IMG/VR virus record: IMGVR_UViG_3300031841_001241
Span: 1-21,440 of that record
Source of the DNA: a virus
Direction: 5' to 3' (one strand)
DNA: 21,440 nt
The notes beneath the pieces are model-generated. The model ran no database searches. It worked only from the letters and a program-made list of their open reading frames with translations, and was not told the origin of the DNA. Below are positions 1,796-20,874 of the stretch, in pieces; the stretch's first letter is position 1, and each line of letters begins with the position of its first letter. A program made the translations under genes and the position numbers.

Positions 1796-2155
1796 TTATT
1801 TACTACTTTGAACAACTTCAGAGCTAACTGCAAAAAGCTCAGACTCTGTAGTTGAATTATTTTTCATTTTAACGCTAGCATAGTAACCTGTTAAGCCAGA
1901 TGTATTAACAGCCGCATCTTTAGAAAATAACAGCATATAATTGTTTAAGGCATTAGTAGAAATAACTGTAGAACCAACATCAACGGTAATTGTATTCGTA
2001 GATGTATTTATAGCAGTTACATCACCAAGTTCAACGATGCTAGACAAATCAGTTGAAAAACCTCCAGAAGAAGTTAAACGAACATGATACGTGGTGTCTC
2101 CAATGCTTAGTGAGTCATTTAAATCGTTACCTATTGTTATATCTATTGTTGCCAT
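1796..2155 (-). CDS. Small beta-rich structural protein, unknown function
   Basis: A 119-aa protein starting MATIDITIGNDLNDSLSIGD. The Thr/Ser/Val/Ile-rich composition with alternating hydrophobic residues predicts an all-beta fold. It contains a segment (GDVTAINTSTNTITVDVGST) similar in style to the beta repeats of the preceding 546-aa protein. The C-terminal half (LTGYYASVKMKNNSTTESELFAVSSEV) looks like the end of a small virion-decoration or tail protein with several strands. It starts one base after the 546-aa gene ends, so translation is probably coupled. I do not recognise the family. A structural role is inferred from composition and from lying between other structural genes. There is no signal peptide or membrane segment. 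Confidence 0.7.
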   Translation of the reverse strand: MATIDITIGNDLNDSLSIGDTTYHVRLTSSGGFSTDLSSIVELGDVTAINTSTNTITVDVGSTVISTNALNNYMLLFSKDAAVNTSGLTGYYASVKMKNNSTTESELFAVSSEVVQSSK

Positions 2156-2156
2156 G

Positions 2157-3797
2157 TTATGATATTGTTAAAATACTATCTAAATTAATTGTTAGTGTAT
2201 GATCTTGTGTTCCAAAATTAGTTATAGCAAGATCAAAAGCTAATGTTGCATTTCTACTACTACCTGTAAATGTAAGTGGCGTGTTGTCGTCTAACGTTTG
2301 AACTGCGCTTAATGTCAATTGATTCACATTAACATTATCTACGTGAGGAGCTACTACCGCAGCATTTATACCTCTACCACTAACAAAAGTTGTTGAAGCC
2401 GCTTTTATACCAGCCGCGCTATCAACATTTACAATTGCACTACCACTCACGGCGCCATTAACTAACGTTGTAACATCTTGTAAAGTTACTGCATTTAATA
2501 AATAACCAGTAGTTACTTCGTCTATACCTAATAACTCAAACTCACAACCGCTAATTAATTTACTAGTTCCAGACCCACCGTAAGTAAACGTGATACTTGC
2601 ATCATCTGCCATACCTCCATCACCAACCGCATTTTGTGTAACGTCAACAACTATAGTATTTGCAGATGAATCTACAGAGACTATTCTTGGACTACCTGTT
2701 ACACCAGTCCCAGTCATAGTCATGCCAGGAACTAAACTAGTTACATCGTCAAAAGCAACAGTGGTACTAGCTGTTTGGTCGCCATTTTTAATTTTTACAA
2801 TACTTGATCTAATATCTAAAGGATGCATGCCAGCTACATTAGCCCCATAACCTCTAGCAAATGTAAATGAGTTTGCCGAAAGCGACAAGTCATAAGAAAA
2901 GCTTGTAACTAATCTTTCAGTAGAGTTTCTTTCACCAGTTATAGTTATATTACTAGGCAGCGTATTATAAGAACCTGAGTATGATGTAGACGATAACGAT
3001 ATTGTTATTGTTATAAGTTTATATTGATTTATAGTTAAAGTATATAAATTTTCATTTGTACTGTCTTGTATACTGCTATTTAAAGTAGTACCTTTAGACA
3101 GCGTCGGTGTCAATTCTACCGTATAAGTATCATCAACACTTATATTTGGAAAAGTAATAAATCCTATAAACTCACCAGTAGCATCTATTTCTTGATCTGT
3201 TAGTTCTGTAACTGAAGCGGTAAATGTATTTGTAGTAAAATCATAAGTAGTATCAGAACCACTAGGATTATCTTTTGTTATTTTTAAACTAAACTTTGCC
3301 GTAGCATCTCCTTTTACAATAAAATTTCTAGTAGTTCCATTCGAGGCTATATCACTAGTATCAAGTTCAAAAGATTTTATTTCTATAAGATTATTATTAT
3401 GCACGTTGGTAGTAGCTGGCAAAGCTTTTGTAGCATGACTAAATATTATAGTATCTCCAAAAGAATTTACAGTATTTGTATATTTTATAACAAATACTTT
3501 AGAAGTTATTCTGTTATTAGAATCTCTAGTTATAGTCTCTGTTATGTTATAAGCAGAAGAATAAGCAGTTCTAATATTATACTTTGGCTCTTTAAAATAA
3601 TAATAACCACTTGAGGCTGTAAATGTTATTGTAGCAATAGTTGCTTCAACACCACTATCAGGCGTTAATATGTAGTTTGTATTAGACGCATAATTTGTTG
3701 TTGTCGTGCTTGCCGTAACACCAGCACCAGCAGATATAGATACAGTATGATTAGCATCTACGGTTACAGTACTATTTAAATTTATTGATAATGCCAT
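2157..3797 (-). CDS. Beta-rich tail or fibre-like structural protein with two inserted repeat domains
   Basis: A 546-aa protein dominated by Ser, Thr, Val, Ile and Asn with short alternating strands, typical of phage fibre, spike or decoration proteins. Two segments, about residues 342-406 and 451-512, share a layout: a short strand, a G-x-x-x-x-G-x-G-[IV] turn (PGMTMTGTGV; SGRGINAAVV), a V-D-[SN] strand, a strand of hydrophobic/Thr residues, then an Asp-rich turn and a closing T-F strand. A related segment occurs in the 321-aa connector protein. The N-terminal 330 residues contain several Ig-like stretches (for example ATAKFSLKITKD). No enzymatic motif is seen. It starts two bases after the giant stabilisation protein and is followed at one base by a small beta protein. 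The exact role is not known; receptor binding is one possibility. Confidence 0.72.
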   Translation of the reverse strand: MALSINLNSTVTVDANHTVSISAGAGVTASTTTTNYASNTNYILTPDSGVEATIATITFTASSGYYYFKEPKYNIRTAYSSAYNITETITRDSNNRITSKVFVIKYTNTVNSFGDTIIFSHATKALPATTNVHNNNLIEIKSFELDTSDIASNGTTRNFIVKGDATAKFSLKITKDNPSGSDTTYDFTTNTFTASVTELTDQEIDATGEFIGFITFPNISVDDTYTVELTPTLSKGTTLNSSIQDSTNENLYTLTINQYKLITITISLSSTSYSGSYNTLPSNITITGERNSTERLVTSFSYDLSLSANSFTFARGYGANVAGMHPLDIRSSIVKIKNGDQTASTTVAFDDVTSLVPGMTMTGTGVTGSPRIVSVDSSANTIVVDVTQNAVGDGGMADDASITFTYGGSGTSKLISGCEFELLGIDEVTTGYLLNAVTLQDVTTLVNGAVSGSAIVNVDSAAGIKAASTTFVSGRGINAAVVAPHVDNVNVNQLTLSAVQTLDDNTPLTFTGSSRNATLAFDLAITNFGTQDHTLTINLDSILTIS

Positions 3798-3798
3798 A

Positions 3799-6700
3799 TT
3801 AGTTTGCTGTTGTGTGAGATGATATAGTTCCTAAACCTTGAACATTAAATTCACCTGTGTCTAAGTTGCTTAATGTAGTTGTATCACCTTTTATATAATT
3901 AAACCATTTACCTTCTTTTTCTATAAACTCATTTAAACTACCACTTTGCTTGTCAGTTGTTATATCTTCTGTATACCAACCTGTTTTAGCTGTTAAGTTA
4001 TAATATTCACCTTCATCAGTGTTTGTATTTTGATCAACTTTAGCCTGCGTACCTTCATAGTTTAATGTTTTAAAAGTTTTTATTGTACTTGGTTCTTGAT
4101 TAAATACAAAAGTAACATCGGAATAATATTGTGTTCCATAAAAATTATTATATGTAGTATTGTTATGATGCCACCATATTTTTAAATTACCACTTTCAGG
4201 AGCTATTGTATAATAGTTGTTAGCTATACTTAAACCTTGTTCTGGTATAAACGATTTAAAACTTGTCCAACCTTTTACATTTTCTTTATAACTAACAGTA
4301 TAATTTGAACTTCCTTTTAAAGTTACATTATATTCTTTTTTATCGTTATCATAAGTTCCAAGTATAGTTGTAGAGGATTTTAAATTATCTTCAAACCAAG
4401 TACCCATACCAGCATCAGATATATCTGTTAAACCATCCATTGATAATCTTAATACTGCACCTCTTTGTTTATCTGTAAAATAAGCCCTGTAGTTTTGAGT
4501 AACAAATGACTCTGGATTTTTTGATATACCATAATCACCAGCGAAAGGTATTGTTTGGCCAAGTACATTTGAACTAGCAGTTACATTTACATTGCCATCG
4601 GCGTTAAACAAAGCGTCTTTATTAGCTTGTATACTTAACACTTTATCTTCACATAGCGTTAATAAATCAGAGTTTCTAGTATGTAATTTTTGTATACTAC
4701 CATATTCTGGGTTTACATCTTTAGTAATTTTTTCAGCAGCAATAAATTGATTTGTCTCGTTAATACCACTTGTAGAGTTATATAAACCAGAGTATATTAA
4801 ACCATATTTTCTTCTTTCTTCTTCATATTCACCTTGTAAAGTTGTAGAAGCTCTAGGATTTTTATCAATAACAACTTGGTTAAAATCATCTTTTATTCTA
4901 TTAGACTCTACACCATTACCAAAACTATAGCAGTTAAACCAAGGTAGCTCATGAAACACTGTATGATTACCAACACTTATAAAGTCACTCGCTTCGTAAT
5001 AAATATCTAAACCTTCATTAGTCTTTGGTTGTGTTTCAAATATAGCTGGTTCATTAGAAGGCAACTGACGCTCATCATTTAATGATGGTTCTACAAACTC
5101 TATAAACTGCGGAGTATCTTCGTCCATTAAAGTACTACTTGTTCCAGAAGTTCTATTTAAAGGGTCGTAATTACTATTAAAACCAGGCGCATCATCTAAT
5201 TCTATAGTCCATGTTAACCTTCTATTTGTGGCAAGACCAAATCTATCTTTTTCATTATTTATACTATCCGCACCTCTTAAGGTAAGTGTGGCTGTTTCAT
5301 TTATAATCTGTCTAGTTCCAGCTGATTGGTTTTCAAACGATTGAGAATTTTTAAAAGAATAACTGTTGTTAGTACTTAAATTACTAGGTCTTACATATGT
5401 ACCATCTGATTCTCTACTAACTATAAACTCATTACCACTAGCATCAAGAGCAAAAGGATAAGCGGTGTGATTCCATCTTCTTTCTTTTCTTATTTTTGTT
5501 ATAGTGTAAACCTTTTCACTAGTATCACCGCTAAATCTAAACTTACTACCTACTTTTAATTTCTTAACAAACTCTTGCTCGTTAATGTGATTTGAATTAT
5601 TTGGACTACCAACAGACCAGGCATCTGACCAAGAAGAGGCTGTATCAATATTACTACCATCAATATCTTTTAAATTACTTTCTGCCCAAATTTTAGAATA
5701 AGAAAGTTCCATATAATATTTACCAGGGGTAAACCAAGTATCAGTTGTAACTCCATCAAACTTTTTTTCACTACCATCAGCCTCAAAAATACCTCTACCA
5801 AATCTACCTGATGTTTTTACTGCTTTGTTATTTTTGTGATCCCAATAACCAGAAGCTTTAAACGTACCGTTTGCTGGTAAATCTTGGTTTAAAGGTTGTA
5901 TACCTATATAAGAAACATTATCTATAAAAAAGTTTTTTCTCGTGCTGTTATTATCGTCGTTTAAAGGGTTTATTTGTGTGTTTGCGTAAAGTTTAAACTT
6001 AAGTATTCTATTCCATTTTAAAACAGCTTCTTCAGAAAGTCTCATATAACGATTACTACCGTCTAAATATGTAGTTCCTCTAGCCGGAGAATATGAACTT
6101 TCTCCAGAAATCTCGTAATTAGGGGTAGTACCACCGTTAAAAGGAGCGTCACTAGTTACAGTTGTTTGTACTAAAATATTTTCGTCTAACTTTTGATATC
6201 TTGTTGCTGTTCCAGAATTATTACCAACAATACCATCATCAGACGCATACCAAGCTTCAGTTCTAGCAACAATACCAACATTACTTTCTGATAAAGCAGC
6301 TTGTGATAATACAAAATTCCTTAAGTTATCATCAAGCAGTAGTTTAACAAAAAACTTACCATTAAATTCTGGTCTTGCCTCGTCTTTTTCCTCTGAAACA
6401 ATAAGGCTAACACCAGTGTTTAAGTTTGTACCACTCATTATCCAAGAAGCGTCGTAATCACTTATAGGAGTGTTTAAGTGAAACATATAATAGTCAGTAC
6501 CATTTATATCTTTAACAGATAACAAATCTACTTTATAATAACTTGATAGACTAGTACCATCTTTGAATCTTAAAACTAAATTACTTAAATCGTCTAATGG
6601 TGCGCCATCATCATTGTCTATCCATATATCTTTTTTAATAGCTAAAACAGTTTGATCGTCTGTAGGTCTATAATTAGTGTCTCCAAATAAAGTGTTAATA

Positions 6701-9396
6701 CCAGCAGAAGCATTTAAACCAACACCACTACCAAGAGAGTTTCTAGTTAATCTTATGTATTCAGGCGCTTCATTTTCTATTGCAAGAATTTTATATGTAG
6801 CAGATTCTTGTAATACAGCTGGCCCCTCTATTTGTTTCTTTAAAACTAAATAAGTTTCTTCATCAACTTTGTTTCTTTCAGAAGATGGAAAAGAAATCCA
6901 AACATTGCCATCAATAGAATTATATATTCTATCCATAGCTAAATTGTAATATTCAGAAGAAGTTTCTTTTACAAAAAATTTAAATGAATAAGCAAAAACA
7001 GGTGGATTATTTTGCAGTTTTACTTTTATAGAGTTTGCATTTACACTTTCTGATTTAGGAACTTTTAACGATGCTGTTTCATCTGTTAACACTGGAGTTT
7101 GTCTACCAAATTCATCCGCATAAACTACACCTATTTGATAATTTCTTTGAGATTTAATAGATTTTTTAGAGTCTACTATTTCTTGACAACTAAAGTTTGA
7201 TATTTGCCCTTTCCAATTAAACGAGCTAGACAAGGATTGAAAACTAAATGTAGTTCCATTACTATATAAATTATTTTGACCTCCTCCATTTACAGTATCT
7301 AATTTGAGAGTAAAGTTATATTCTCCGTTAGCGTTAATATCTTTTCTAGCAAATTTATTTGAAGCTATTAATTGTAATCTTAAAACACCTTGCACATAAT
7401 TTTCTACTTTAAATTTTATTCTATAAACACCGTCATTTTGAAAATTTATATTTTGAGATATTTTGTCAAATTGACTAACACCTGTAGAAGGATTTTTTTC
7501 TTCAAAACCACCACCTAAAAATAATGTATTATAAAAATCAGCTGTTAAACTCCAAGAGTTATCCATATTCCAACCGTCTACAATATTTCCTGTTGTGTGA
7601 TTAATTGGAGTTGCCAATGGATTTGCTAATAATTCTGCAGAATTGTTTAGTCTTGGACTTATTAACGCACTTAATTGCGGTTTTACTATATCATTAGCAT
7701 CGTCTTTTAAATTATAATTTTGCAAATAATTACCATAAACAACCCTGTTACCTGTTATGCTTTGAGCTAAAGCTCTTCTAGGTACATTGTCAAAATGTCT
7801 TAATATTTGGTTAGATGGTATTGCAGCATATATATTTTCAGAAGTTATAGAATATTTGCCTTGAAAAGTAAAGCTGTCGTTTACAGTATTCCAAGCGTTA
7901 GTACTTCCGTTAATAACAATGTCTGTTCTACTTATATTATCTACTGTATATATAATAGGTGAATTAGACTCTTTATACAATATGTCTATTTGAACAACTT
8001 CTTTAGATATGTTGACAGGTATAAAATCTTTTATTATAACTTCTTTAACTTGATTTACCATACCGGTGTTATAACCTTTTATAGTCTCATAATTAAACTC
8101 ATCAGGAATAAAAGCAATGTCTGAAAAAGGAGAGATGGTAGAGTATTCACCATCAACATATTTCCATCTTGTAGCAAATCTTACAAACTTTTCTTCAAAA
8201 AGATTTTTAGCTATATGTTCTAAAATTATATTATAAGTATTACTACCACTAGGGGTGTTTTGCTTACTCAACATTTGCAGTGTAACAGTAGTATCTTCAA
8301 TAATTTTAACTCTAGCTTTTACATGAAAATTATCTGAAGAAGGCGTTATATTATACCCAAATAATATGGTATCATTAGGTTTATAATTTGTAGCAACAGT
8401 AGTTTCTATCTCAATAGTATCATTAATACTAACGTCGTCAAAATTAAATGTAGTTGTTGTTGATATTATTCCAGACCTGTCAGAAGTACTTAGATCAATA
8501 ATAGGTGCTGTTTCAGGATTTTTCTTTATAACAGTTATATCACTTTCTTTATAATAATCATATTCTACTCCATTTACAACAACTTTTGTTGATTTATTTA
8601 AATCAGAAGCGTCAGTACCTGCTAACGCTCTAGTTAAATTTATTTTTTTAGGTTCACTGTTATTATCTGTCCAAAACAATAAATCATCAATTATATTCAA
8701 ACCAGTAATTAAAACATTTTTATCAAATCTTAATACTCGCTTTTTAAATTGAGGGCTATCTGTAAAAGCATTTGACCCGTAAGTATCAGGTACTTGCCAA
8801 GAAAACTCTATCCAATCCCAATCTTTTTTATAAACTTCAACATCGAGTGTTACTGTACTTCCAGAAACAGTTATTTGTCTATAAACAGAGCTAGTTGTTC
8901 CTACAAGTTTAACATACATACCTGTTGATAAATTTGTAGTTGTTGTTGTAAAAGCTGTATATGGATTACTACCTGTCCAGTCACCAGACGCTGGTGTTGG
9001 GTGTTTTTCTAACCAAAAATCTATAAAAACAGGTGTTGTAGTATGTGTGTTTGTAGTAGAGTTATACACGCTTTTGTATATAAAATCTTTGTAGGTAAGA
9101 ATAGAGGAAGGAGCTGCAGCAACCCAATCGGTAGTATCAGCTATTAACCAATAAGCTGTATTATTTGATTCATCAGCAATAGCGCCAACGCAAAAACCAG
9201 AATCAGAAACTGTAGTAGGACTAGCAACAGGTATTGCACTATTACCTAATAAACTTTGTACAGTTCCAACATTATCTGTGTCAGATGTTGATACTTGAAT
9301 ATTGTTTGCGTCTATATATTCTCCATTAGGAACTAGTCTTTCATCAAGGTCTTTGTTCATTTTACCTTGATTGAAAACATGTTTTATTTCTGGCAT
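3799..9396 (-). CDS. Giant tail stabilisation / muzzle-type protein
   Basis: A 1865-aa protein. Its start, with GKMNKDLDERLVPNGEY at residues 11-27, and the motif LFWTDNNSEPKKINL (240-254) are hallmarks I associate with the phage stabilisation protein family found next to connector genes in crAss-like and uncultured marine phages. The family is related in role to P22 gp10 and to the crAss muzzle protein that closes the portal-tail channel. Residues 550-562 and 745-770 (RNYQIGVVYADEFG) are conserved-looking core. Between them, about 586-742, sits a lectin/jelly-roll-like insertion. The rest is predominantly beta. There is no transmembrane segment or catalytic motif. The length exceeds that of most P22 gp10-like proteins by more than threefold and is nearer to crAss muzzle proteins. 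It follows two connector candidates with a three-base gap. The family call is recall, not a search. Confidence 0.82.
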   Translation of the reverse strand: MPEIKHVFNQGKMNKDLDERLVPNGEYIDANNIQVSTSDTDNVGTVQSLLGNSAIPVASPTTVSDSGFCVGAIADESNNTAYWLIADTTDWVAAAPSSILTYKDFIYKSVYNSTTNTHTTTPVFIDFWLEKHPTPASGDWTGSNPYTAFTTTTTNLSTGMYVKLVGTTSSVYRQITVSGSTVTLDVEVYKKDWDWIEFSWQVPDTYGSNAFTDSPQFKKRVLRFDKNVLITGLNIIDDLLFWTDNNSEPKKINLTRALAGTDASDLNKSTKVVVNGVEYDYYKESDITVIKKNPETAPIIDLSTSDRSGIISTTTTFNFDDVSINDTIEIETTVATNYKPNDTILFGYNITPSSDNFHVKARVKIIEDTTVTLQMLSKQNTPSGSNTYNIILEHIAKNLFEEKFVRFATRWKYVDGEYSTISPFSDIAFIPDEFNYETIKGYNTGMVNQVKEVIIKDFIPVNISKEVVQIDILYKESNSPIIYTVDNISRTDIVINGSTNAWNTVNDSFTFQGKYSITSENIYAAIPSNQILRHFDNVPRRALAQSITGNRVVYGNYLQNYNLKDDANDIVKPQLSALISPRLNNSAELLANPLATPINHTTGNIVDGWNMDNSWSLTADFYNTLFLGGGFEEKNPSTGVSQFDKISQNINFQNDGVYRIKFKVENYVQGVLRLQLIASNKFARKDINANGEYNFTLKLDTVNGGGQNNLYSNGTTFSFQSLSSSFNWKGQISNFSCQEIVDSKKSIKSQRNYQIGVVYADEFGRQTPVLTDETASLKVPKSESVNANSIKVKLQNNPPVFAYSFKFFVKETSSEYYNLAMDRIYNSIDGNVWISFPSSERNKVDEETYLVLKKQIEGPAVLQESATYKILAIENEAPEYIRLTRNSLGSGVGLNASAGINTLFGDTNYRPTDDQTVLAIKKDIWIDNDDGAPLDDLSNLVLRFKDGTSLSSYYKVDLLSVKDINGTDYYMFHLNTPISDYDASWIMSGTNLNTGVSLIVSEEKDEARPEFNGKFFVKLLLDDNLRNFVLSQAALSESNVGIVARTEAWYASDDGIVGNNSGTATRYQKLDENILVQTTVTSDAPFNGGTTPNYEISGESSYSPARGTTYLDGSNRYMRLSEEAVLKWNRILKFKLYANTQINPLNDDNNSTRKNFFIDNVSYIGIQPLNQDLPANGTFKASGYWDHKNNKAVKTSGRFGRGIFEADGSEKKFDGVTTDTWFTPGKYYMELSYSKIWAESNLKDIDGSNIDTASSWSDAWSVGSPNNSNHINEQEFVKKLKVGSKFRFSGDTSEKVYTITKIRKERRWNHTAYPFALDASGNEFIVSRESDGTYVRPSNLSTNNSYSFKNSQSFENQSAGTRQIINETATLTLRGADSINNEKDRFGLATNRRLTWTIELDDAPGFNSNYDPLNRTSGTSSTLMDEDTPQFIEFVEPSLNDERQLPSNEPAIFETQPKTNEGLDIYYEASDFISVGNHTVFHELPWFNCYSFGNGVESNRIKDDFNQVVIDKNPRASTTLQGEYEEERRKYGLIYSGLYNSTSGINETNQFIAAEKITKDVNPEYGSIQKLHTRNSDLLTLCEDKVLSIQANKDALFNADGNVNVTASSNVLGQTIPFAGDYGISKNPESFVTQNYRAYFTDKQRGAVLRLSMDGLTDISDAGMGTWFEDNLKSSTTILGTYDNDKKEYNVTLKGSSNYTVSYKENVKGWTSFKSFIPEQGLSIANNYYTIAPESGNLKIWWHHNNTTYNNFYGTQYYSDVTFVFNQEPSTIKTFKTLNYEGTQAKVDQNTNTDEGEYYNLTAKTGWYTEDITTDKQSGSLNEFIEKEGKWFNYIKGDTTTLSNLDTGEFNVQGLGTISSHTTAN

Positions 9397-9399
9397 ATG

Positions 9400-10269
9400 T
9401 TAGTGTTTTATATGCTTAGACTTGCCTCTAAGTACTTGAGTTAATTCTTCTAATTTTAAATTTGATAATCTTAGTTTTGCCTTTCTTGTAGCGGCAAATT
9501 TGTCTTTTTGAAATCTACGAACTATATATTCTGGTGTATTAGCTTTTGTAGACATTATCGCGTATGCTATACACTTATACATTGCTTCTTCAGCAAACTT
9601 ATGCACTTGCATTTCTGCATCTGTACCTAAACTATCGCTTATATATTTTAAAGTTACAGTTTTACCACTTAAAAAAGAACTAAAATGTATTTTTCCAGCA
9701 AGCTCATCTATATAATAAGAACCGTTAACTTGCGAGTGTTGTGGATCTAAACCATATCTTTGACCTTCAGCTGGCCATAACGTATCATCTTCATAATCAT
9801 CTCTAGTTGTAATTGAAGTGTGGGCTTTAAAAGCTGTCCAAGTGTCTGATTCAGTTTCAAAATCTAATTCATTACCACTTAAGTTATAAGTACCATCTGC
9901 ATTTTGTTTTATAGATTTTGGATTTGAAGTTCTTGAAGTCGGGTAAATAGGGTGTTCTACCCCAGCAGAATCTTTCCAAGTTAATTTAACATAGTTAACA
10001 TAATCTTGTGGTAGCAACATTTGCAATGTAGCTGGTATAGTTATTTCTTGTGCTTTAGTAGATTTAAAAGTGTCAAAGCTTAATTCTTGCAACGCTCTTT
10101 GAGCGTGAAAAGCAACATCAACTCTTTTAACTTTTTGAATTATTTTATCTTCACCAACATAAGCAATAAGAAATTGATCTATTATGTTTTCTAACGATGT
10201 AAACTGGTAGCCACCAAGATTACCTGAATCTTGATATTGCTGTTGTGTTTGGTTGTCTAATAATCCCAT
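9400..10269 (-). CDS. Head-tail connector / ring protein candidate
   Basis: A 289-aa protein. A helical N-terminal half includes the conserved-looking block YVGEDKIIQKVKRVDVAFHA (37-56) followed by QRALQELSFDTFKS, then a beta segment with LPQDYVNYVKLTW (86-98), and a very basic C-terminal helix (RKAKLRLSNLKLEELTQVLRGKSKHIKH). I recognise this combination from uncultured marine and crAss-like phage contigs, where it sits directly before the stabilisation/muzzle gene. The layout (helical bundle, short beta domain, basic tail) resembles ring or tail-tube adaptor proteins that dock under the portal. It starts four bases after the 321-aa gene ends and ends three bases before the 1865-aa gene starts. 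Both gaps lack a Shine-Dalgarno sequence. The assignment as a ring protein is inference from order and fold character. Confidence 0.72.
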   Translation of the reverse strand: MGLLDNQTQQQYQDSGNLGGYQFTSLENIIDQFLIAYVGEDKIIQKVKRVDVAFHAQRALQELSFDTFKSTKAQEITIPATLQMLLPQDYVNYVKLTWKDSAGVEHPIYPTSRTSNPKSIKQNADGTYNLSGNELDFETESDTWTAFKAHTSITTRDDYEDDTLWPAEGQRYGLDPQHSQVNGSYYIDELAGKIHFSSFLSGKTVTLKYISDSLGTDAEMQVHKFAEEAMYKCIAYAIMSTKANTPEYIVRRFQKDKFAATRKAKLRLSNLKLEELTQVLRGKSKHIKH

Positions 10270-10273
10270 TTAT

Positions 10274-11239
10274 TTATTGTTTTTCTTGTTGAATATCGCT
10301 TGATTCTTTTTGACTAGCAACTTGTGTTACATTATAATCTTTCATAGATATACCTGCTAACTGTAATATTTTTATTACTAAATTATTTTCTTCTGACTCA
10401 TGAAGTTCAAAGTTTTGTAAATCAGTAGCACTCGCATTGTATAACGCTTTGCCAACAATGACTGTATACGTCCACTTTACAGTAGCAGGTTTTCTTATAT
10501 AATTACATTTTACATCATCTGATGCAAATGTTAATGTAACGTCTGGACTACTTCCTGTAGCCGCCTGTGATATTTCTAAATTATTAGGACCAGAACCTGA
10601 TATAGAAACAACTGTAGTTCCAGCTGGTATATCTGTACCAGTTATTGTTTGCCCAGCTTCTATAAAATCTAAATTACCACCAGCATCAACAGATATTGTA
10701 GTTGTGCCATCAGTATCACCATTTTGAGTAAAATAAACCGCTGCAGAAGCAGAAGGTGTAACACTGTGTGGTTTTATCTTAACTCCAGTAGCAGAAGTTC
10801 TCACATAAACAGGCCTTTCAATCGTTGCTTTTGCTAATGGTGTTCTATCCATCAACATAAACTCATCTTCAGTTACTTCTTCTATTATATTTGCCGTAGA
10901 ACCGCTAACACCAGTTAAAGAAAGTCTAGTTAAATTATCTAATCTATATACATCATTTGGTAAAGTCCCGTCACCAAATTGATTTATAATAGTAACTGGC
11001 TGTTGTCTTTTTTTAAATATACTTATTTTTTCTTCTAATAAATGATCTAAATCAGCATAAGGCGTGTTATCTTTTGGAAGTCTATTATACTGATTTTTAT
11101 CATAAAAATATTGCTCAAATATATCCATTTGAGCTTGATTAGCAAATAAGTTAAACTCCTGCGGAGTTATATATCCTCTTTGCTCTTTGTTAGCTATTGC
11201 TAAAACTTTTTGATATACATTGTTTATACTTACTGCCAT
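10274..11239 (-). CDS. Head-tail adaptor / ring protein candidate with inserted beta domain
   Basis: A 321-aa protein starting MAVSINNVYQKVLAIANKEQ. The N-terminal helices (1-50) include GYITPQEFNLFANQAQMDIFEQYF, a pattern I associate with a podovirus adaptor/ring family. A mixed region (95-170) follows, then YIRKPATVKW (247-256) and a helical end. Residues about 177-239 are a Gly/Thr/Ser-rich beta insertion (AGQTITGTDIPAGTTVVSIS) that splits the adaptor core just before the YIRKP strand. The same kind of module occurs twice in the 546-aa protein. It is separated from the upstream 274-aa gene by a gap holding a GC-rich palindromic element, and from the 289-aa connector gene by four bases. No enzyme motif is seen. 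I am confident that it is a virion protein, less so of its exact ring position. Confidence 0.72.
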   Translation of the reverse strand: MAVSINNVYQKVLAIANKEQRGYITPQEFNLFANQAQMDIFEQYFYDKNQYNRLPKDNTPYADLDHLLEEKISIFKKRQQPVTIINQFGDGTLPNDVYRLDNLTRLSLTGVSGSTANIIEEVTEDEFMLMDRTPLAKATIERPVYVRTSATGVKIKPHSVTPSASAAVYFTQNGDTDGTTTISVDAGGNLDFIEAGQTITGTDIPAGTTVVSISGSGPNNLEISQAATGSSPDVTLTFASDDVKCNYIRKPATVKWTYTVIVGKALYNASATDLQNFELHESEENNLVIKILQLAGISMKDYNVTQVASQKESSDIQQEKQ

Positions 11240-11295: not shown

Positions 11296-12120
11296 TTATT
11301 TTAATCTTTTTTCTATACTTGCATATATCTCCATACCTTCATCAGTTTTAAACCAATGTGCTAAAGCAGTGTATGGATGCTCGTCAAATGGAACTGTCAT
11401 TATAGGCCTATCATTTGATCCCCATAAAAAGTTTCTTTGATCTTGAGTTAATTTTATAATACCAAGCTCTGTAGCTTTAATACCAAAATTTCTAAGTTGA
11501 ACATTATCATCAGAAGCTAACTCTAAGAATAAATTAGGATTTTTCTTAGCAAACAGTAATAAGTCACGTTTTATCTCCTTAGAACTCATATCTGATACCT
11601 TAGAACCTAATTCTACACGCATAATAGCTTCTGCCATATCAATATCCATATCTCTAGCAGCTAATAAAGCGTCAACTTCTAAATTTAAATCTTCTATTTG
11701 ACTTTTAGCTATTTCAACAGGTTTGTATTCTTCAAATAACTTGTCTTTGTGAGGATGGTATATTGATAGTAATTTTTGTAAAACAGTTTTGTTTTTAGGA
11801 ACGAACAAAGAACCGTTTTCAAAGATAATATGTGCTAATCTTTGGTCGCCTTTCATTTCATCAACAAAACAAGTTTTTTGGTTTGAAGTATATTTTAATT
11901 CTCTTTCATAACCTTTTTCTTCATCAAACCAATATATATTGCTACCTCTTATTAAATAAGTCAAAGGAGACTTACCATTTTTAAGATAGTACATCCTATC
12001 TTTTATAACCCAACCATCTTCTGGGTGGGATTTTGTTTTTGTTTTAGGTTTTGGTGTTTCAACAACTGGTGTTTCAACAACAGGCACCTCTACCTCTTCT
12101 ATTTTTTGTTTTTTTGCCAT
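11296..12120 (-). CDS. Conserved head-associated protein downstream of the capsid gene, unknown function
   Basis: A 274-aa protein. The N-terminus is Lys/Pro/Val-rich and probably disordered, with the repeat VVETP (about residues 14-23). A compact domain follows with YYLKNGKSPLTYLIRGSNIY (44-63) and a D-E-x-x-G-Y-x-R-E-L-x-Y block, then IIFENGSLFVPKNK and a helical C-terminal half (about 140-270). The pattern 'K-N-G-x-x-P-L-T-Y then D-E-E-K-G-Y' is one I recall from proteins encoded immediately after major capsid genes in marine crAss-like contigs. Its function is unproven; auxiliary capsid or head-completion roles fit the position. The gene is flanked by the capsid terminator upstream and the palindromic element downstream, so its level may depend on read-through. 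Its leader and first codons resemble those of the scaffold gene. Confidence 0.65.
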   Translation of the reverse strand: MAKKQKIEEVEVPVVETPVVETPKPKTKTKSHPEDGWVIKDRMYYLKNGKSPLTYLIRGSNIYWFDEEKGYERELKYTSNQKTCFVDEMKGDQRLAHIIFENGSLFVPKNKTVLQKLLSIYHPHKDKLFEEYKPVEIAKSQIEDLNLEVDALLAARDMDIDMAEAIMRVELGSKVSDMSSKEIKRDLLLFAKKNPNLFLELASDDNVQLRNFGIKATELGIIKLTQDQRNFLWGSNDRPIMTVPFDEHPYTALAHWFKTDEGMEIYASIEKRLK

Positions 12121-12190: not shown

Positions 12191-13624
12191 TTAGTTCATT
12201 AACATGAAGTTATTAGCTCCTTGTGTAATTAAACATCTTTCAGATAAGTAGTGAACTTCCATCACGTCTTTACCAGTAGTAGCAGCACCAACAGAACCAG
12301 TAACCCAAGTTTTTAATCTTCGGTCATCAGTTTGTGAAGCTCTATATCTTACGTGTAAGAAAGGACGCTTCATGTTAGAACCTAATTGCTCATCATAAAC
12401 TGAAGATACACCAGCAGGAATAATAACCCCTCTAACTGCATTTACAGTATCATTAAGAGCACCTCTAGTACCTTTGTCGTTTAGGTATTTAAAGTCAGAT
12501 TTATAGAAGTCATAAGAACCTCTTCTGAAACCAGAGAAACCTAAATTTAACGCCATGTCTTCAGAGTTATTAAATACTCCGTAAGAAGTACCACCAGCTC
12601 CGTAAGAGTTCATTGAAGCTAACATGTCATCAATAGCTAAGCTAGTTGATCTGTTTACAAACATCATGTTTTCTTCAATAGCACCGTTTTGGTCGAATAC
12701 AGCTAAGATAGCATCAAACTCAGCTAAATCAGTAGCAGCGTTAACACCAGTAATACCTGTAGTTTGGTGACCTCTGTTTTCAATAGCTTTGAATAAACCT
12801 TCAGTACCAGAACCATCAGCACCAGTATCACCAGCGTTAGTTGGTACACCAGAAGGAGCAGCAGCTAAGCTTAACTCACTTTCCATCATAGACATCTCTA
12901 AGTAATCAGTAAATCTAGCTCTTGTATCACCTTCAGCTTTTAAATACCATAGGTAACCATTTTGACCTTCTTCACCAGATACTTCGATCCAACCGATTTG
13001 AGCAGTATCAGATCCAGATACTTCGTAGTAATCTTTCAAGATAATGTGCTTATTCATATGAGACTTGAACTTAGGCTCGTTAGCAGAAGATCTACCATCT
13101 TGACCTTTAGCAAATTCAGAACCATAAACTAATATTCTAAAGTCATCATTATCAGTTAAACCAGCAGCATCACAGTCAGCGTGAGTATAAGGTAAAACTG
13201 TAACACTAGCACCTGAAACTGTACTAACAAAACCTCTAATAGTGTTTCCAGAAGCCTCTGAAATTAATACAGTGTCACCAACTCTAATACCGTGATCAGC
13301 ACCAACAGAGTTCCCATCAACATCGTTTACAATTGTAAATATGTTTAAAGAAACGTCAGCATTAGTTGCAGTATAAGCTAAATGTAATCTACCTTGCTCT
13401 GACCAGATTACTCTATCAGAGTTAGAAGCTTCTTCAGCTCCTACTTGAGCTAAGAAACCTGCGATTGTTCTCTTACCATAAACCTCAGCTTCTTTTTCCA
13501 TAAGATCTGGTAAGTATTGTTGTGCCCAACCTTCAGTTGCAGAAGACGTAAAGTCTACATAGTTAGACGCAAGCGTTTGTTTTCTAGGAGCAGCATCTAT
13601 ACCACTCGCACTTGTAATTGACAT
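12191..13624 (-). CDS. Major capsid protein (HK97-fold, crAss/marine type)
   Basis: A 477-aa protein of the length typical for crAss-like capsid proteins. The N-terminal arm (1-50) includes WAQQYLPDLMEKEAEVYGKRTI. A Gly/Val/Ser-rich insertion of about residues 90-168 (VGDTVLISEASGNTIRGFVS) looks like a beta sub-domain. The helical/beta core contains MFVNRSTSLAIDDMLASMNS (321-340) and RPFLHVRYRAS (420-430), and the end is ERCLITQGANNFMLMN. Placement right after a scaffold candidate and before a strong terminator, with base composition richer in G+C than its neighbours, suits the most abundant virion protein. No delta-domain or protease gene is seen, so proteolytic maturation is not indicated. 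The start is the only in-frame ATG near the leader; there is no Shine-Dalgarno sequence. The HK97 fold is inferred from position and length. Confidence 0.85.
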   Translation of the reverse strand: MSITSASGIDAAPRKQTLASNYVDFTSSATEGWAQQYLPDLMEKEAEVYGKRTIAGFLAQVGAEEASNSDRVIWSEQGRLHLAYTATNADVSLNIFTIVNDVDGNSVGADHGIRVGDTVLISEASGNTIRGFVSTVSGASVTVLPYTHADCDAAGLTDNDDFRILVYGSEFAKGQDGRSSANEPKFKSHMNKHIILKDYYEVSGSDTAQIGWIEVSGEEGQNGYLWYLKAEGDTRARFTDYLEMSMMESELSLAAAPSGVPTNAGDTGADGSGTEGLFKAIENRGHQTTGITGVNAATDLAEFDAILAVFDQNGAIEENMMFVNRSTSLAIDDMLASMNSYGAGGTSYGVFNNSEDMALNLGFSGFRRGSYDFYKSDFKYLNDKGTRGALNDTVNAVRGVIIPAGVSSVYDEQLGSNMKRPFLHVRYRASQTDDRRLKTWVTGSVGAATTGKDVMEVHYLSERCLITQGANNFMLMN

Positions 13625-19516: not shown

Positions 19517-19788
19517 TACTTTGACCTACCCTCTGCAAACCCTTTAAATACTTTTACTTTATCTTCAGGCTCTTTACCTTCTAATAAGTTTTCTTCTTCT
19601 TGGATCCTGTTTAATATTTCAAATGCGTCAAATATTGCTAGTTTTTTTGTAGCAGCGGCATTTTTTAATCTATCAGCAGATATATCATCATCGGAGTCTA
19701 CAATTGGTTCTTTAGCAACTTTGATTAATTCATCAACTGCTCTCTGCCCAGCTTTTATAATTTCTTTTTTTGTCTCTTTAATATTCAT
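19516..19788 (-). CDS. Candidate small terminase subunit / conserved small protein upstream of terL
   Basis: A 90-aa, wholly helical, charged protein starting MNIKETKKEIIKAGQRAVDE, with a central block SADRLKNAAATKKLAIFDAF and a Glu-rich helix (EILNRIQEEENLLEG). It lies directly before terL and overlaps it by one base, the usual place of the small terminase subunit, which recognises phage DNA for packaging. No helix-turn-helix is certain from the sequence, and it is short for a TerS. I recall similar small proteins before terL in marine contigs without a proven role. Its start overlaps the stop of the homing endonuclease gene (ATGA), and its first 11 codons are repeated at the start of that gene, which suggests the start region was duplicated when the endonuclease arrived. 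Confidence 0.62.
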   Translation of the reverse strand: MNIKETKKEIIKAGQRAVDELIKVAKEPIVDSDDDISADRLKNAAATKKLAIFDAFEILNRIQEEENLLEGKEPEDKVKVFKGFAEGRSK

Positions 19789-19789
19789 A
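19756..19789 (-). repeat. Repeat copy R: start region of the 90-aa gene
   Basis: These 34 bases (TATGAATATTAAAGAGAC then A-rich) match 20289-20322 at 25 of 34 positions by hand alignment. Eight of the nine differences fall at third codon positions of the shared reading frame, so both copies encode MNIKETKK-x-II. This is the downstream border of the homing endonuclease insertion. Confidence 0.7.
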
Positions 19790-20321
19790 AGTATCTAGAT
19801 TTAACAGTGTTCTTATGTATACCTAGAGCTAATGCAGCTTGTCTAAGTGAGTTATACTCTATGCCGTCTATAGTTACGGTGACCCTATTTTTTTGCCCAA
19901 TAGACATTTTAAGTTTAGATTTATCACTATGTTTCCTCCCTTTTAAAGAATCGCTTATTTTAGCTCTTCTGCAATCCTCTAACTCCTTGTTTAAGGAGCC
20001 AGTTCCTTCTCCCCCACAAGTCATATTGCATAGACACCCATTCTGCAAATCCAACCTGCCGTACAGTTTGATAAATTCTATTTCCTTTTGTATTGCCTCC
20101 TTCTTTGTTAAGTTGTCTAGTAAAATATCTACAAAATATTCTGTTTTATTTGTAATGTTTTTCCAAAAAATAGATCTATCCTTTTTGTTATAAGGCCTAT
20201 TTCTGTCGCTACAGATACCTATGTAGAACGGAATATTCTTGTCTTTTCTTATATGCCTATATACAGCCCAGTTACCTAGCCCACTTGGGATTATATTCTT
20301 CTTCGTCTCCTTGATATTCAT
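19785..20321 (-). CDS. GIY-YIG homing endonuclease (free-standing)
   Basis: Taken from the ATG at 20321 it is 178 aa; an upstream ATG at 20369 would add 16 residues but lies deeper in the preceding gene. Motifs, numbered from the chosen start: WAVYRH (18-23) and FYIGIC (32-37) form the GIY-YIG core. Arg residues in DRNRPY (39-44), the KEAIQKEIEFIKLYGR helix with catalytic Glu candidates 80/82, and NMTCGGEG (99-106) follow. SDSLKGRKHSDKSKLKMS (123-140) is a NUMOD3-type DNA-binding repeat, and SLRQAALALGIHKNTVKSRY (158-177) is a NUMOD1-type helix-turn-helix. The family cuts phage DNA at specific sites to spread its own gene, often near packaging genes. Its start overlaps the GroES-like gene by 50 bases; its TGA overlaps the next ATG. 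Its first 11 residues copy those of the next gene. Confidence 0.9.
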   Translation of the reverse strand: MNIKETKKNIIPSGLGNWAVYRHIRKDKNIPFYIGICSDRNRPYNKKDRSIFWKNITNKTEYFVDILLDNLTKKEAIQKEIEFIKLYGRLDLQNGCLCNMTCGGEGTGSLNKELEDCRRAKISDSLKGRKHSDKSKLKMSIGQKNRVTVTIDGIEYNSLRQAALALGIHKNTVKSRYL

Positions 20322-20874
20322 ATTTAATTGTAATAAATTTTGATAGTAGTCTATATAGCTTTTGACCATCTATAATAAACTCATATTCTGAGCTTGGCCT
20401 AAAACCTATTAAGTCACCTTTTTCTACTGTACCGTCTGTGTATTTAACAATACCTACTAAAGGTTTTTCTTTTTCTGTACTTAGCTCGTCTGTTGATTTC
20501 ACTGGTGCTACAAAGCAGTAACCGTCTACTGCTTGCCATTTAGCGTGGTAATCAAATACAGACTTTTTTTTGTATAAAAATATTTGATCTGGTTGTACTA
20601 GATAATGATCTTCATCAATATAAGCCCTACTGTTTTTTTCTATACCGTGTTGGTTGTGCCATCTTCTAAAAACATTATGATGTACAATTACGGTATCACC
20701 AACTTTAATTTCTGTTTCACCTACAGTTGGTATTGCTTTTACTATAGCTTCTCTGCTAACGTATTGATGATTGAATATCTCAGTATTTACTATCAGCTCT
20801 TTACCGTCTATATCTTTAGTATTGTTGTATCTATTTTTTATAGGCGTTACAACAAAGTTGTAAACTGATTTCAT
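20272..20874 (-). CDS. Protein with two tandem GroES (Cpn10)-like domains, candidate phage co-chaperonin
   Basis: A 200-aa protein that appears to hold two copies of the co-chaperonin layout. Copy 1, about 5-103: an N-terminal strand FVVTPIKNRY like the 'rPLxDRv' strand, REAIVKAIPTVGE, then IKVGDTVIVHHNVFRRW (57-72) and YLVQPDQIFLYK at the end. Copy 2, about 112-186: WQAVDGYCFVAPVK, KEKPLVGIVKY, VEKGDLIGFRPSSEYEFIID (150-169), then KLYRLLSKFITIKYE. The [IV]-x-[KV]-G-D-x-[IV] plus closing 'x-x-[DK]-x-I' strand is the GroES signature. T4 gp31 shows that phages use such proteins with host GroEL to fold capsid protein. A mobile-loop sequence is not obvious (20-36 is a candidate), so GroEL binding is unproven. 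It overlaps the previous gene by one base (TAATG). The alternative is an unrelated beta-barrel structural protein. Confidence 0.6.
   Translation of the reverse strand: MKSVYNFVVTPIKNRYNNTKDIDGKELIVNTEIFNHQYVSREAIVKAIPTVGETEIKVGDTVIVHHNVFRRWHNQHGIEKNSRAYIDEDHYLVQPDQIFLYKKKSVFDYHAKWQAVDGYCFVAPVKSTDELSTEKEKPLVGIVKYTDGTVEKGDLIGFRPSSEYEFIIDGQKLYRLLSKFITIKYEYQGDEEEYNPKWAR
20289..20322 (-). repeat. Repeat copy L: end of the GroES-like gene and start of the endonuclease
   Basis: These 34 bases encode the C-terminus of the GroES-like protein in one frame and the first codons of the homing endonuclease (MNIKETKK) in another. They match 19756-19789, the start of the 90-aa gene. The G residues that differ from copy R fall at first codon positions of the GroES-like frame (Gly, Asp and Glu codons), so they are constrained here and free to change in copy R. 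Confidence 0.7.

Follow-up and report, generated by a model that had tools for sequence, protein, structure and literature searches.

Related copies of a small, predicted β-barrel module in tail proteins of a marine crAss-like podovirus

β-barrel insertion domains in virion proteins are already known, case by case, from structures. The capsid protein of crassviruses is known to contain a β-barrel I-domain, and variation in muzzle length through insertions was noted in the same source (PMC10172136). The barrel inserted in LKA1 was reported to resemble the I-domain of P22 (PMC5701251), and "double insertion domain" forms have been described for tailspikes and depolymerases (PMC13385381). Dimers of the Bridgette decoration protein gp7 bridge two P-hexon capsomers (PMC13033339). 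Our literature searches found no paper on the module described below in crassvirus ring or muzzle proteins. What this analysis adds is the module as a sequence family, its occurrence in a ring protein of the crassvirus type, the record of its gain, loss, and copy number, and its link with a free decoration protein.

The structural gene block and its module-bearing proteins

The window, meaning the whole stretch of DNA that was analysed, is 21,440 bases long and is the entire virus record; it is a contig of a marine crAss-like podovirus. Its structural genes form a block on the minus strand in the order terminase, portal, 403-aa protein, MCP, 274-aa protein, 321-aa connector, 289-aa protein, 1865-aa giant protein, 546-aa protein, and 119-aa protein, where terminase and portal are putative names of our own reading. 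The features discussed are collected in Table 1.

Table 1. Positions of genes and protein segments in the window
Feature	Position (strand)	Residues	Remarks
119-aa protein	1796-2155 (-)		
546-aa post-muzzle protein	2157..3797 (-)		facultative gene between the muzzle gene and the 119-aa gene
546-aa module copy 2	2265..2441 (-)	453-511	divergent; 32 bits in the iterated HMM; pairwise not significant
546-aa module copy 1	2583..2768 (-)	344-405	40 bits in the iterated HMM; AF2 model Z 7.9 to 8eci
1865-aa giant protein	3799..9396 (-)		crassvirus-type muzzle; Pfam crAss_MUZ_C, E 1.5e-12
Muzzle insertion	8809..8985 (-)	138-196	insertion present in some rows and absent from others; probably a module copy that has diverged strongly
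289-aa second ring-type protein	9400..10269 (-)		phrog_13977; module absent in the window's version
321-aa connector	10274..11239 (-)		probable crassvirus-type tail-barrel ring protein; phrog_14543, E 2.3e-42
Connector module copy	10523..10705 (-)	179-239	boundaries by HMM; in the preliminary description 177-239, 10523-10711
274-aa protein	11296-12120 (-)		family matches crAss001 gp33 (hhalign E 6e-4, probability 29%); syntenic position
MCP insertion	13121..13357 (-)	90-168	capsid insertion (I-domain), not a module member by sequence
194-aa ORF	19785-20369 (-)		upstream of terminase; putative GIY-YIG-type homing endonuclease by its motif

The match to crAss_MUZ_C identifies the giant protein as a crassvirus-type muzzle. 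The 119-aa protein and the C-terminal part of the muzzle match different regions of the same two families, phrog_18548 and phrog_38031, so the two are seemingly fused in other phages.

The connector aligned collinearly with the crAss001 ring protein gp34 over 179 columns (hhalign E 0.0011, at a probability of just 20%), and the order MCP, gp33, gp34 of crAss001 is mirrored in the window. With moderate confidence, this collinear likeness and the gene order point to a crassvirus ring protein. None of crAss001 gp35, gp40, and gp43 exceeded 20% against the connector in hhalign, and the connector profile retrieved no ring protein from the PDB. By name, its relatives belong to phages of Flavobacterium (68), Cellulophaga (15), and a few others; none of these 87 records covered 80% of the query.

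A PHROGs search with six post-muzzle proteins gave no match, and neither did P0002 when searched against phages. Elemovirus (L201), an isolated relative, has no post-muzzle gene at this place, where a 426-bp gene directly follows the muzzle-like gene; the module was absent from the 42 ORFs of the Elemovirus stretch that was read.

Relationship among the module copies

The preliminary description, made from the letters of the window, had proposed that one segment of the connector and two of the 546-aa protein contain the same small β module, and its coordinates and residues for these segments are correct. Within the window, the connector segment matched 546-aa copy 1 with a BLASTP E value of 0.005, a score reached in 2 of 500 shuffles. 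The match to copy 2 was marginal (26 of 500 shuffles, again within the window), and the two 546-aa copies gave no pairwise signal with each other (132 of 500). When the connector segment was scanned over 1079 windows cut from the other proteins of the contig, the best 11 all began at residues 311-361 of the 546-aa protein, while copy 2 scored level with a stretch of the portal.

Profiles were more decisive. A profile of 43 module copies, which contains no orthologue of the window's 546-aa copies, matched six copies (those of the window's 546-aa protein and of its L001 and L028 orthologues) with an hhalign probability of 95.6% and E 1.1e-8. An iterated HMM, run over 1709 unique ORFs from 196 loci plus the window, recovered all three segments, the connector copy scoring 65 bits; at these final scores the window copies were already in the training set, and the highest reversed or shuffled decoy reached 8.5 bits. 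Copies from the connector, the 546-aa slot, and the muzzle, which had been chosen with a connector-seeded HMM, matched each other as profiles at 97.6-98.6%, against at most 0.8% in 20 column-shuffled controls. The proposal of a common module thus stands: the connector segment and both 546-aa segments are very probably homologous, inserted copies of one all-β module of about 60 residues.

In 81 copies, the conserved columns are the core residues I, G, V, I, V, L, and F, and conservation outside them is very low. The composition is strongly T/S/G/V (W 0.1%, Y 1.0%, C 0.0%), with tryptophan, tyrosine, and histidine less frequent than in the proteins that harbor the module. Pfam scans of the copies gave weak matches at most and no clear family; one of 43 copies matched PF12195 End_beta_barrel (endosialidase) at E 3e-4, and it is not one of the 20 copies that were scanned singly. 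A single-sequence search of the PDB found nothing, and tblastn with two copies as queries returned 0 and 2 phage records, low-complexity filtering probably hiding such queries.

AF2 predicted five strands for the connector module (43 rows, pLDDT 80.1, pTM 0.68). For residues 330-546 of the 546-aa protein (14 rows) pLDDT was 76.9 and pTM 0.46, with copy 1 well predicted. The best PDB match of the connector model was 8eci, Bridgette gp7 (Foldseek E 0.11, probability 0.99), with Z 7.4 and rmsd 1.9 over 62 aligned residues at 39% identity. The model of copy 1 matched residues 103-179 of the Mystique tail tube (Z 9.8), the LKA1 insertion domain (Z 8.2), 8eci (Z 7.9), and the P22 I-domain (2m5s, Z 7.5); copy 2 in the same model matched other barrels at lower Z. 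By their separate matches to 8eci, the two models point to the same predicted fold. A Z value under 8 may reflect just a common arrangement and is no proof of kinship. Among the 50 viral predicted proteins listed for the connector model, 24 had a probability of 1.00 and none an E value below 0.001. The sequence profile retrieved 8eci too (E 0.0014 among 177635 sequences), and a second profile, built on all copies, gave gp7 10.1 bits at E 0.22. Profile and predicted fold together suggest that the Bridgette-type decoration protein carries a homologous barrel, less strongly so with the second profile.

Presence, absence, and exchange of the module

The module is inserted cleanly in the hairpin turn ahead of the connector's CNYIRKP strand, which in the gp34 alignment is the turn before the RYIRRP strand of crAss001. 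That it splits the core just before YIRKP, as the preliminary description had it, was confirmed by homologues with a short turn alone at that site. Among 65 aligned connectors, 26 carry the module in a stretch of 82 to 242 residues, and the module-free ones have 7-16 residues there (42 in L073). When the set was widened to 135 connector ORFs, the module was recognised in 32, all of them long at this site, and the other 103 have neither module nor length; the module is dispensable in this family. Recognised copies number one to three per connector (three in L024-L027, two in L118).

A quick maximum-likelihood tree was calculated from the connector core with the insert removed (108 rows, 25 with the module). 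Three changes account for the module on this tree, at least two of them forced by well-supported branches, and each may be a gain or a loss; the mean for shuffled states was 22.6. A supported clade of 21 rows keeps the module in frame. The module was thus gained or lost as a unit.

At the window's muzzle site (residues 138-196), more than 40 residues are present in 23 of 101 rows and at most 16 in the other 78, counting the window twice and including near copies. Recognised copies occupy this site in L082, L153, and L194, and the 13 unrecognised inserts, the window's among them, were not significantly similar to the module (E 0.007-0.05, probability at most 5.6%). The looser likeness to the module reported for residues 150-190 of the giant protein is probable, judging by the recognised copies that this site bears in relatives, although the segment alone was not significant (0.4%; E 0.02-0.05). 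Module copies occur at several muzzle positions. Of 20 such copies, 16 have one or more homologues that align on both flanks and lack the copy; the other four have none.

In post-muzzle relatives, the module is retained down to about 26% identity. The window's 546-aa protein shares 74% and 68% identity with those of L082 and L083, whose connectors are nevertheless module-free, so the two genes vary independently.

Counted over ORFs of at least 80 aa, fragments and near copies included, the recognised module occurs in 32 of 137 connector-family, 23 of 41 post-muzzle, 16 of 155 muzzle, and 1 of 131 second-ring ORFs. It was absent from the families of the MCP (138), portal (68), TerL (59), and the 274-aa (135), 403-aa (144), 228-aa (47), 119-aa (46), and 343-aa (5) proteins, and no free-standing module gene was found among the 72 module-bearing proteins. 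The sole second-ring case is a 389-aa protein with two copies (L067:10744-11910). With 27 bits, the module also occurs in a "phage stabilization protein" of an uncultured siphovirus (L200:7224-9242). The module accounts for some of the length differences among ring and muzzle genes that otherwise align.

The capsid insertion, to which a looser likeness had also been ascribed, was rejected as a module member by sequence; the comparisons gave 1.1%, 3.3 bits, and 2.6% and 28%.

When each of 81 non-redundant copies was paired with its nearest counterpart at another locus, the two sat in the same gene slot in 66 cases (connector 33 of 35, post-muzzle 23 of 27, muzzle 10 of 17, second-ring 0 of 2). 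The module has therefore truly spread between slots, but for the most part long ago. Across slots, the closest pairs are the L030 muzzle copy with the L005 post-muzzle copy (55% identity) and the L131 connector copy with the L129 and L131 muzzle copies. In the L131/L129 lineage (L131: 3001-3909 and 5062-6903), the L131 connector module is nearest to muzzle copies of its own or the sister genome (48% identity), which makes this lineage a candidate for within-genome copying. As a general rule such copying was unsupported: the 15 same-genome cross-slot pairs had a mean normalised score of 0.184, against 0.162 for 2880 other pairs, and L131 and L129 alone stand out.

The idea of an exchangeable decoration domain spread among virion proteins, put forward in the preliminary description, holds in part. 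A homologous module does occur in different virion proteins, it comes and goes as a unit and sits at several muzzle positions, and among solved structures it is closest to a capsid decoration protein that stands alone. However, exchange is mostly old, the capsid insertion is unrelated by sequence, and the decoration function is proposed by homology. Tentatively, and with less than even probability, the module may be a mobile cassette, present as a free gene for capsid cement in some phages and as a plug-in in others. Within one genome it would be copied from one tail-protein gene to another (between muzzle and ring in the L129/L131 lineage), and by shifting a single 180-bp unit a phage would re-armour different regions of its virion.

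Role of the module and comparison with known systems

The reading that we favor, with somewhat better than even confidence, is an exterior, cement-like barrel in tail-protein loops. A β-barrel of about 60 residues would have been inserted repeatedly into surface loops of the ring, second ring-type, muzzle, and facultative post-muzzle proteins, each copy presumably folding by itself. With twelve ring subunits, the number in crAss001, the barrels would form a belt outside the tail tube. A position outside the tube is likely, since the DNA channel would be crowded by an additional 60 to 240 residues per subunit. The barrels could act as decoration or cement through contacts among neighbouring subunits or with other parts of the tail, much as Bridgette gp7 bridges capsomers; we give cement or decoration an even chance of being the main role. 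Exposed loops may secondarily contact the host surface. Conservation of the core type and the scarcity of W, Y, and C speak less for an enzyme or a lectin lined with aromatics than for a structural part, and the conserved β-core, the apparent homology to a cement protein, and the restriction to tail-type proteins favor an exterior structural module.

The main rival to a structural role is that the module is chiefly an adhesion domain, which binds host surface polysaccharide weakly and multivalently and whose gain and loss follow host range. Every recognised protein harboring it is of the tail type, and similar barrels occur in the capsular depolymerases and tailspikes LKA1 gp49, K1 lyase, and phi92 colanidase. 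The LKA1 barrel helps form the active or substrate site of an LPS-degrading tailspike (PMC5701251), and the weak End_beta_barrel match of one copy fits as well. However, no conserved polar or aromatic surface residue was found, the rarity of aromatics lowers the case for a lectin-like role, and the crAss001 ring is distant from the tail tip (PMC10172136). We consider adhesion as the main role rather unlikely.

Less probable again is a neutral passenger, a stable barrel tolerated in exposed turns that spreads and disappears without function. Its gain and loss in connectors, the variation from one to three copies, and the low conservation outside the core are in keeping with this explanation, but neutrality would predict quick loss, whereas an intact frame is kept in the supported connector clade and in distant post-muzzle relatives. 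That Ser/Thr/Gly/Val-rich β stretches are alike without common origin agrees with the composition and with the non-significant pairwise result for copy 2, but is extremely improbable, being rejected by the HMM decoys (none above 8.5 bits, where the window copies score 32-65), the column-shuffled profiles, and the pairwise shuffles, and being at odds with presence or absence as a unit and with barrel predictions that were made from separate alignments and both match 8eci.

A single sequence family here connects a free decoration protein with insertions into no fewer than four tail-protein slots in this marine crAss-like lineage. With 0 to 3 copies in the ring protein and measurable gain and loss, the re-use of one exterior module by phages becomes testable.

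Among known systems, the P22 coat I-domain, a six-stranded β-barrel, and the I-domain of the crassvirus MCP are likewise small barrels inserted in a virion protein, and the model of 546-aa copy 1 matches the former at Z 7.5, a value too low to prove kinship. These I-domains are part of HK97-fold capsid proteins, whereas the module belongs to the tail, was found in 0 of 138 MCP-family ORFs, and has no sequence similarity to them that we could find. LKA1 gp49 (residues 284-370), K1 lyase, and Kp P560 also have a barrel inserted in a tail protein, and the model of copy 1 matches LKA1 at Z 8.2; in them, however, the barrel is carried by a β-helix enzyme and is 17% identical to the module. Cyanophage virion structural proteins contain the same sequence module (S-PM2 p091 at 36 bits; phrog_5838 and phrog_6005 match 13 and 8 of 43 copies), but their carriers are other proteins, in T4-like myophages. 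Bridgette gp7 is like the module in profile, fold, turn, and strand order. It is encoded by a free-standing 126-aa gene directly after the MCP gene and belongs to a siphophage capsid, whereas the module is an insertion in tail proteins; since the module is built into tail-type proteins and was not found as a free gene, it is best regarded as a probable relative of the decoration protein and not as a decoration protein itself.
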